NCBI GenBank assembly: GCA_016868915.1
Contig: VGFL01000016.1
Span: 1 to 35,838 of the forward strand
Length of the DNA: 35,838 nucleotides
Direction: 5' to 3'
From: Bacteroidota bacterium
GTDB lineage: Bacteria; Bacteroidota; Bacteroidia; Flavobacteriales_D; Crocinitomicaceae
Positions 32,169 through 33,326 of the stretch are shown one piece after another. Positions within the stretch are counted from its first letter, which is position 1. Every line of letters begins with the position of its first letter. Position numbers and translations under genes: made by a program. Below the pieces are notes generated by a model. That model worked only from the letters and a program-made list of their open reading frames with translations. It was not told the DNA's origin and made no database searches.

Positions 32169-33326
32169 ATGTCAGACATAGCTCTATTTTTTTCATCTCT
32201 TGAAACTCATGACACTGAATTTGCAACCGATCAACTTGGTGCAATAGTGGAACGAAACGAAGGAAGCTTCCCAGAGTTAAAAGCTGGAGGGGTTGCAATC
32301 CTTTTTGTTCCTGAGTATAGGGGAAATAATTCTATCTCCTCTAGTTTTCAATCTTTAGATGGATTTAGAATCAAATTTTACCAATTATCCTCCCATTCGG
32401 ATTGGAAATTTCCTATTTATGATTTGGGAAATATTATCCCCGGTAAAGAATTAAAAGATACTCATTTTGCCGTGGAACAAGTTGTTTTTGAGTTGGTGAA
32501 AAAGCGAGTTATTCCAATTATTATTGGTGGAAGTCAGGATTTAACCTTTGCCATGTATAAAGGATATTCACGCCTAGAACAAACGATAAATACATGCGCA
32601 GTTGATTATAAACTTGATTTGGGGGATGTTGAAAAGGATATTCATTCCGAAGGGTATTTAAGCCATATGCTTTTACAACGACCTTGTTATTTATTTAATC
32701 ATGCAAATATTGGATTACAAATTCCATATGCGGGAATAAAAGATTTAGAGTTGTTCGAACGTCTTTATTTTGATGCTTGTCGATTGGGAGAATTTAACGC
32801 AGACTTTAAACGGGCAGAACCCCACTTAAGAAACTCAGATTTCTTAACAATTGATTTTAATTCAATTAAAGCTTCTGAAACTCAAACTAAATATGCTCAA
32901 CCAAATGGATTTTATGCCGAACAAATTTGTCAAATTGCAAAGTATGCCGGAATAAGTGATAAATTGACAAGTATCGGAATATTTAATCATATCGGAACAA
33001 TCGATTCTAATACAGCTGACTTTCTTCTGGCTGAATTAGTTTGGTACTTTATCGATGGGTTTTCGCAGCGAAAAGCTGATTTTCCCGTTGGTAGTAAGTC
33101 GCAGTATACCCGACATATTGTTGCAATGGACGATTTTGAAGAAGAAATTGTTTTCTACAAAAGCAATAAGTCTGATCGTTGGTGGTTGGAAGTTCCATAT
33201 CCTCATCAGGAAGGTATGAAATATGAGAGACATCACTTAATTCCATGTGATTATGAAGATTATGAAAAAGCCATGAGCAATGAATTGCCCGATTTGTGGT
33301 GGAAAACATATCAAAAATTGATTTAA
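32169..33326 (+). CDS. Arginase/formiminoglutamase-fold protein with degenerate metal site
   Basis: A 385-residue protein of the ureohydrolase fold. The family's landmark segments are present but altered. GGxH is GGSQD (120-124, His to Gln), DxHxD is DYKLD (146-150, His to Lys) and the later DxD is DFN (229-231, Asp to Asn), so three of the six usual manganese ligands are replaced. The protein is otherwise long and well ordered (ARYAGISDK-like KYAGISDKLTSIGIF), which argues for selection and a different role, binding or regulatory, rather than decay. Relatives in Bacteroidota are usually labelled formimidoylglutamase. ATG 32169 fits the promoter. The GreA-like gene follows within a few bases. 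Confidence 0.8.
   Translation: MSDIALFFSSLETHDTEFATDQLGAIVERNEGSFPELKAGGVAILFVPEYRGNNSISSSFQSLDGFRIKFYQLSSHSDWKFPIYDLGNIIPGKELKDTHFAVEQVVFELVKKRVIPIIIGGSQDLTFAMYKGYSRLEQTINTCAVDYKLDLGDVEKDIHSEGYLSHMLLQRPCYLFNHANIGLQIPYAGIKDLELFERLYFDACRLGEFNADFKRAEPHLRNSDFLTIDFNSIKASETQTKYAQPNGFYAEQICQIAKYAGISDKLTSIGIFNHIGTIDSNTADFLLAELVWYFIDGFSQRKADFPVGSKSQYTRHIVAMDDFEEEIVFYKSNKSDRWWLEVPYPHQEGMKYERHHLIPCDYEDYEKAMSNELPDLWWKTYQKLI

Follow-up and report, generated by a model that had tools for sequence, protein, structure and literature searches.

The window, by which we mean the whole stretch of 35,838 nucleotides analyzed here, encodes a protein (F) that has the fold of an arginase, lacks three ligands of the metal site and belongs to a conserved family in which this loss is general. 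Together with gene order and co-occurrence, these features suggest that F may be an old enzyme turned into a helper part, perhaps of the type IX export and gliding motor.

The arginase fold and metal site of F

The F gene (32,169–33,326, + strand) is an intact open frame that runs from an ATG at 32,169 to a stop codon at 33,326 and specifies 385 residues, with an alternative in-frame TTG start 18 bases upstream of the ATG; no signal sequence was seen in the protein on inspection by eye. F matches the Pfam Arginase model (PF00491) at 25.2 bits, above the cut-off of 22, and an AlphaFold model built from 53 family sequences has a pLDDT of 90.2 and a pTM of 0.91. When this model was aligned to Trypanosoma cruzi formiminoglutamase (4myn) using VIA-align, 278 residues between positions 18 and 302 were matched with an rmsd of 2.3 and a Z-score of 33.8, which defines an arginase-fold domain of approximately residues 1–303 (32,169–33,077, +) and leaves residues 304–385 outside. 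As judged by fold and by PF00491, F is a member of the arginase/ureohydrolase superfamily, and the predicted structure allows the fold to be assigned with high confidence. The formimidoylglutamase model TIGR01227 gives 41.6 bits, below its equivalog cut-off of 229.15, and lends no support to that name for F.

Where arginases have the motifs GGxH, DxHxD and DxD, F carries GGSQ (residues 120–123; 32,526–32,537, +), DYKLD (residues 146–150; 32,604–32,618, +) and DFN (residues 229–231; 32,853–32,861, +). In the alignment, Gln123 takes the place of the first ligand His, Lys148 that of the ligand His in the middle motif and Asn231 that of the last ligand Asp; Asp146, Asp150 and Asp229 are kept. Three other, canonical arginase-family proteins are encoded in the window's genome, all with complete sites (for example GGEH, DAHAD and DID), and alignment to these bears out the description, given in an earlier note on this DNA, of an intact frame with three altered motifs. 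The note had proposed checking whether the replacements are common to the Bacteroidota family, and they are: all six ligands, the hallmark of an active binuclear ureohydrolase, are kept in none of 181 non-identical F sequences, a count that leans on our transfer of four sequences to the canonical group (see below). Position 123 is Gln in 137, His in 22 and Asn in 10 of the 181; position 148 is His in eight, position 231 is Asp in six, and the two never occur together. Because the same positions are replaced across the family, the loss goes beyond chance, and it supports the proposal that F is a pseudo-arginase with an altered site and probably not a binuclear hydrolase. We consider it likely that F is not a hydrolase.

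Each of the 14 canonical relatives that were compared has the His of the first motif, an unaltered DxHxD triplet and the final Asp, and the fifth ligand column holds Asp in ten, Cys in one and Glu in three, the Glu apparently reflecting an alignment shift. A further column, which we take to be the substrate-binding Glu, is Glu in all 14; the residue is kept in 90 of the 181 F sequences and is Asn in F of the window. The three Asp residues are retained together in 157 of the 181 (Asp146 and Asp229 each in 93%), and all but one of these 157 have Gln, His or Asn at position 123. We assume that Asp146, Asp150 and Asp229, among them the two bridging Asp residues, coordinate metal A of the arginase pair, and that the lost pair at positions 148 and 231 belongs to metal B. 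With the metal-A ligands largely kept and the metal-B pair lost, a single-metal site is possible, and one metal may still bind at the old site. Five sequences of family label f5 (L075–L079) lack all three Asp residues and nearly all ligands, their six ligand columns reading NSISND in four cases and NSVSND in one, and the gene is still kept. These five genes stand ahead of what appear to be polysaccharide genes in a cluster, and four of them have topA close by.

The most conserved positions of F, at 98–100% of the 181 sequences, include C360, W292, G247, W338, F329, G261, R221, E217, G297, Q184, P218, G87 and D85. None of these is a lost ligand, and some fall in a conserved C-terminal module (approximately residues 304–385; 33,078–33,323, +) with RWW, PC and DY motifs. 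Ten columns of the module are invariant in an alignment of 30 sequences (A2): F29, R37, W38, W39, P59, C60, D64, Y65, A68 and P74. The window copy of the module has no Pfam match, and a search of the window's genome for a paralogue of the module returned F alone. An SH3 assignment was considered: SH3b_P2 matches the module in five of the 30 members (best E 0.0039), and the best matches among PDB sequences have E-values of 0.11 (gp84) and 0.22 (spectrin SH3). The module's own structure model (pLDDT 79.8) finds no PDB fold better than E 3.3, and SH3 is at most a candidate fold for the module.

Distribution and gene order of the F family

The family was delimited from 199 aligned rows, of which 181 were assigned to F and 14 to the canonical group, and four fragment rows (L121, L207, L213) were left out. 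Ten of the canonical rows score below 95 bits with the profile and were assigned on that basis; the remaining four (L084, L085, L086 and L214; 102–132 bits) were moved there because all six ligands are present. Three very divergent F rows (L081–L083; 121–128.6 bits) overlap these scores and have lost the ligands. A tree of 41 F members and the 14 canonical relatives places all 14 together, supporting the move, and separates the F family from them by a branch supported at 100/100, in a tree with several long branches and an unsettled bootstrap. With respect to these canonical relatives, F forms one separate clade.

A sample of 246 class genomes (each at least 95% complete) was searched with the family profile, and 234 have a match. 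We take the class to be Bacteroidia since the matching records include Pedobacter, Mucilaginibacter, Flavobacterium and Crocinitomicaceae, although the titles of some metagenome-assembled records disagree with one another. This distribution is that of a conserved gene and not of a decaying one. In a repeat search of 23 genomes, with matches in 16, the family's own members scored at least 96.9 bits (the weakest being a C-terminal fragment) and other arginases at most 80.4 bits per match. Canonical proteins taken as whole frames reach 132 bits with the same profile, and the weakest class members (L081, L082 and the fragment L213) were therefore also judged by their ligand columns. In a sample of 392 genomes of the phylum, all single-protein matches better than E 1e-19 lie inside the class; weaker ones occur in 59 genomes from elsewhere in the phylum, and the three inspected (L084–L086) have the full set of ligands. 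The window's nearest named relatives are metagenome-assembled genomes (67% identity), followed by Crocinitomicaceae and Flavobacteriales assemblies of the same kind at approximately 53–60%. One relative (L121, 10,001–11,149) has a single stop codon inside its F frame, owing to an error in sequencing or to real breakage of the gene. Pseudo-arginases are otherwise known as single cases; F constitutes a family found in nearly all genomes of the class sample.

Where as much as 21 kb around F was read, a recurring block has the order topA – F – (porP) – gldK – gldL – gldM – gldN, of which porP-gldKLMN is the core of type IX secretion, and representatives score above the NCBIfam cut-offs for PorP/SprF, PorK/GldK, PorL/GldL, PorM/GldM, PorN/GldN, TopA and MiaB. 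F precedes gldK in Flavobacterium aurantiibacter (L141) and presumably also in Flavobacterium johnsoniae UW101. The first interpretation, made from the window alone, is supported as regards the pseudo-arginase and incomplete in missing the link to type IX secretion, which is invisible within the window. Among the matches listed, strongest first, 95 of the 246 class genomes have both F and GldN placed, and in 81 of these the two lie less than 8 kb apart; in the other 14, three have them on the same contig at 42–198 kb and 11 on different contigs.

Of 146 non-identical loci, we surveyed the 127 that extend at least 1.5 kb to either side of F, a sample in which relatives of the window are over-represented. 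Here porP or gldK lies near F in 54 loci and topA in 32, both being present in 30; porP or gldK occurs without topA in 24 and topA alone in two, a difference dominated by close, Crocinitomicaceae-like relatives of the window. Neither adjoins F in 71 loci, including that of the window. In 52 loci porP or gldK is downstream of F and in the same direction, at a median distance of 120 bases; topA, where present, is closer still (median gap 10 bases), and the gene order of F may thus be a frozen neighborhood. Two loci with a very divergent F (L082 and L083, family label f7), which are Saprospiraceae-like by comparison with the named record L161, have F close to gldK and porP but oppositely oriented. 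F is unlinked to porP and gldK in the Sphingobacteriaceae records, where it has another location, and the same holds for one Chitinophagaceae record.

In the window's own genome, porP-gldKLMN is found on another contig (L223, G000:C57, 7,286–14,146) without F and with other genes upstream, and F in the window follows genes for a TonB receptor and an HMA protein. Four more genomes of this genus contain F, and in the three that were read (L035, L224 and L225) it directly precedes porP-gldKLMN. The simplest reading of these sequences is that F moved out of the block in the window's lineage, yet was kept.

Across the 246 class genomes, F and GldN matches occur together in 232, F alone in two (G436 and G346), GldN alone in eight and neither in four (Fisher p 4.7e-5, a statistic that ignores relatedness). 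The eight genomes with GldN and no F (G406, G438, G337, G373, G528, G544, G190 and G249) carry six family labels; F is thus absent from eight of 240 GldN-positive genomes and is not a strict requirement for type IX secretion. G346 (L239) is useful for separating F from type IX secretion. In the phylum sample, GldN was found in 101 class genomes, and one genome outside the class has a marginal match. GldJ was also tried as a marker, with counts taken by eye. At E < 1e-30 it is present in 232 and absent from two F-positive genomes, against four and eight of those without F (p 7e-11), a cut that is unsafe because two GldK proteins reach E 1e-40 and 2e-50 with the GldJ model. At E < 1e-60 the counts become 202 and 32 against two and ten (p 4e-7), and since 32 F-positive genomes then have no clear GldJ, we do not rely on either table.

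Possible roles of F and its closest precedents

Based on gene order and co-occurrence, from which the role is read, we tentatively propose that F has been repurposed as a cytoplasmic adaptor or sensor without hydrolytic activity, whose target may be the GldLM motor. We consider this reading plausible, if somewhat short of probable, and hold the link to type IX secretion as such with slightly more reserve. F would not hydrolyze guanidino compounds, would reside in the cytoplasm and would act as a binding protein, either (i) as an adaptor contacting the cytoplasmic side of the type IX secretion/gliding motor or (ii) as a small-molecule sensor reporting to that motor. We think it rather unlikely that F is an overlooked cytoplasmic motor part or regulator, encoded in the core locus across much of Bacteroidota, that docks by the C-terminal module and may sense a single metal or a nitrogen-rich ligand in the old active site. 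For the adaptor-or-sensor reading we count the ligand loss, the single clade, the presence in most class genomes, the conserved non-ligand positions, the fold, the gene order (including the 24 loci with only porP or gldK against two with only topA), the co-occurrence with GldN, the 14 genomes that have F and no canonical partner (see below) and the binding of PorX by the cytoplasmic domain of GldL. Against it we count the ten genomes that hold GldN or F alone, the 71 unlinked loci, the possible frozen neighborhood and the three retained Asp residues, which a pure scaffold would not need. If the motor is indeed the target of F, a part of the type IX system has been overlooked; if it is not, a large conserved family must have some function besides that of the histidine-pathway enzyme suggested by sequence searches.

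The absence of a strict tie to GldN would also fit a pseudoenzyme with a housekeeping or amino-acid-sensing function, unrelated to type IX secretion, whose gene order is an inherited neighborhood. Both topA and miaB share the F block, F is kept though unlinked to porP and gldK in the Sphingobacteriaceae and Chitinophagaceae records, and it persists in G346, as GldN does in the eight genomes without F. We nevertheless find this explanation doubtful: F stays with porP or gldK in 24 loci where topA is gone, against two for the reverse, and the better F matches and all but one marginal GldN match of the phylum sample are confined to the same class. The retained Asp triplet, its Gln, His or Asn partner at position 123 and the Glu kept in half of the family would be expected if F were a real single-metal enzyme with a changed chemistry or substrate. 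The two metal-B ligands, however, never occur together, F of the window has Asn at the Glu column and the five f5 sequences keep the gene without any of the triplet; on these sequence grounds such an enzyme appears improbable. Decay to a pseudogene, to which the divergent sequence, the lost ligands and the stop codon in L121 might point, is contradicted by the intact frame, the near-invariant residues and the presence of F throughout most of the class, and we give it practically no credence.

F might instead be the inactive partner subunit of a canonical ureohydrolase, in the manner of MetCb and MetCa. In structural comparisons the metformin hydrolases rank with the best matches to F, they show that the fold can take a pseudo-subunit role (PMC11271267), and the window's genome has three canonical members. 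In 14 of the 234 F-positive genomes (assemblies 95–100% complete), however, the only PF00491 match is a single weak one that on repeat search proved to be F itself in every case. Pairing with a canonical protein, as in the case of MetCb, is thus not general, unless the partner was missed by the assembly or is too distant for the model; the heteromer was rejected as a general role and is very unlikely to account for F.

As for known systems, the formimidoylglutamases/formiminoglutamases (HutG, TIGR01227; 4mxr, 4myn and 3m1r) are the best fold match to F, and the HutG model matches all 53 members of family alignment A1 (P0001 and 52 of 72 named loci) at E 0.01 or better. Unlike HutG, F has lost one Asp and two His residues from its metal site and has the extra C-terminal module. 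A 2015 study, to go by its title, reportedly describes a eukaryotic arginase-like protein that, like F, has no binuclear manganese cluster. In openly licensed papers, we found no literature that appeared to link arginase, formimidoylglutamase or formiminoglutamase to type IX secretion, gldK or gliding, and "arginase" and "formim" are absent from the main text of PMC8986121, PMC10951265 and PMC8754138.

MetCb is a pseudo-subunit paired with active MetCa in metformin hydrolase (PMC11271267). Like F, it is an arginase-family pseudoenzyme, and its use as a protein binder would make it the nearest precedent for the mechanism proposed for F; it differs in working with an active paired subunit, whereas F occurs in the 14 genomes without another PF00491 match. 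For a soluble protein acting on the type IX motor, the nearest precedent by analogy would be PorX, a cytoplasmic regulator that binds PorL/GldL, including the cytoplasmic domain of Flavobacterium johnsoniae GldL in a two-hybrid assay (PMC10951265). PorX thereby resembles the role proposed for F, in which a soluble protein would touch the motor from the cytoplasm, but its domains are CheY-like and PglZ, and its contact comes from the two-hybrid assay where that of F is proposed.

The possible promoter and the neighbors of F in the window

F had been described as starting right behind a perfect promoter. A possible -7 box, TATCTTTG (32,146–32,153, +), fits the consensus TAnnTTTG, which we take to be that of Bacteroidota, and this part of the description stands. 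No TTG lies 17–23 bases upstream of the box, that is, there is no well-spaced -33 box, and the promoter is therefore not perfect. The -7 consensus occurs 34 times on the + strand of the window, against approximately 25 times in base-shuffled sequence.

Immediately upstream of F is a gene for an HMA/CopZ-like protein (31,645–31,989, +; NF033795, 47.6 bits, below the cut-off of 91). It closes a row (28,910–31,989, +) of a small Cys/His-rich protein, a TonB-dependent receptor and the HMA/CopZ-like protein that has the look of a metal-handling cluster. Downstream, a GreA-like frame (33,296–33,778, +; TIGR01462, 19.6 bits, far below the cut-off of 139) overlaps the end of F, its GTG start lying inside the 3' end of the gene; coupled translation and a later start are both possible. 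The window also contains two tRNA-Arg genes, at 23,653–23,727 (+) and 35,682–35,754 (-), with the anticodons acg and cct, respectively.
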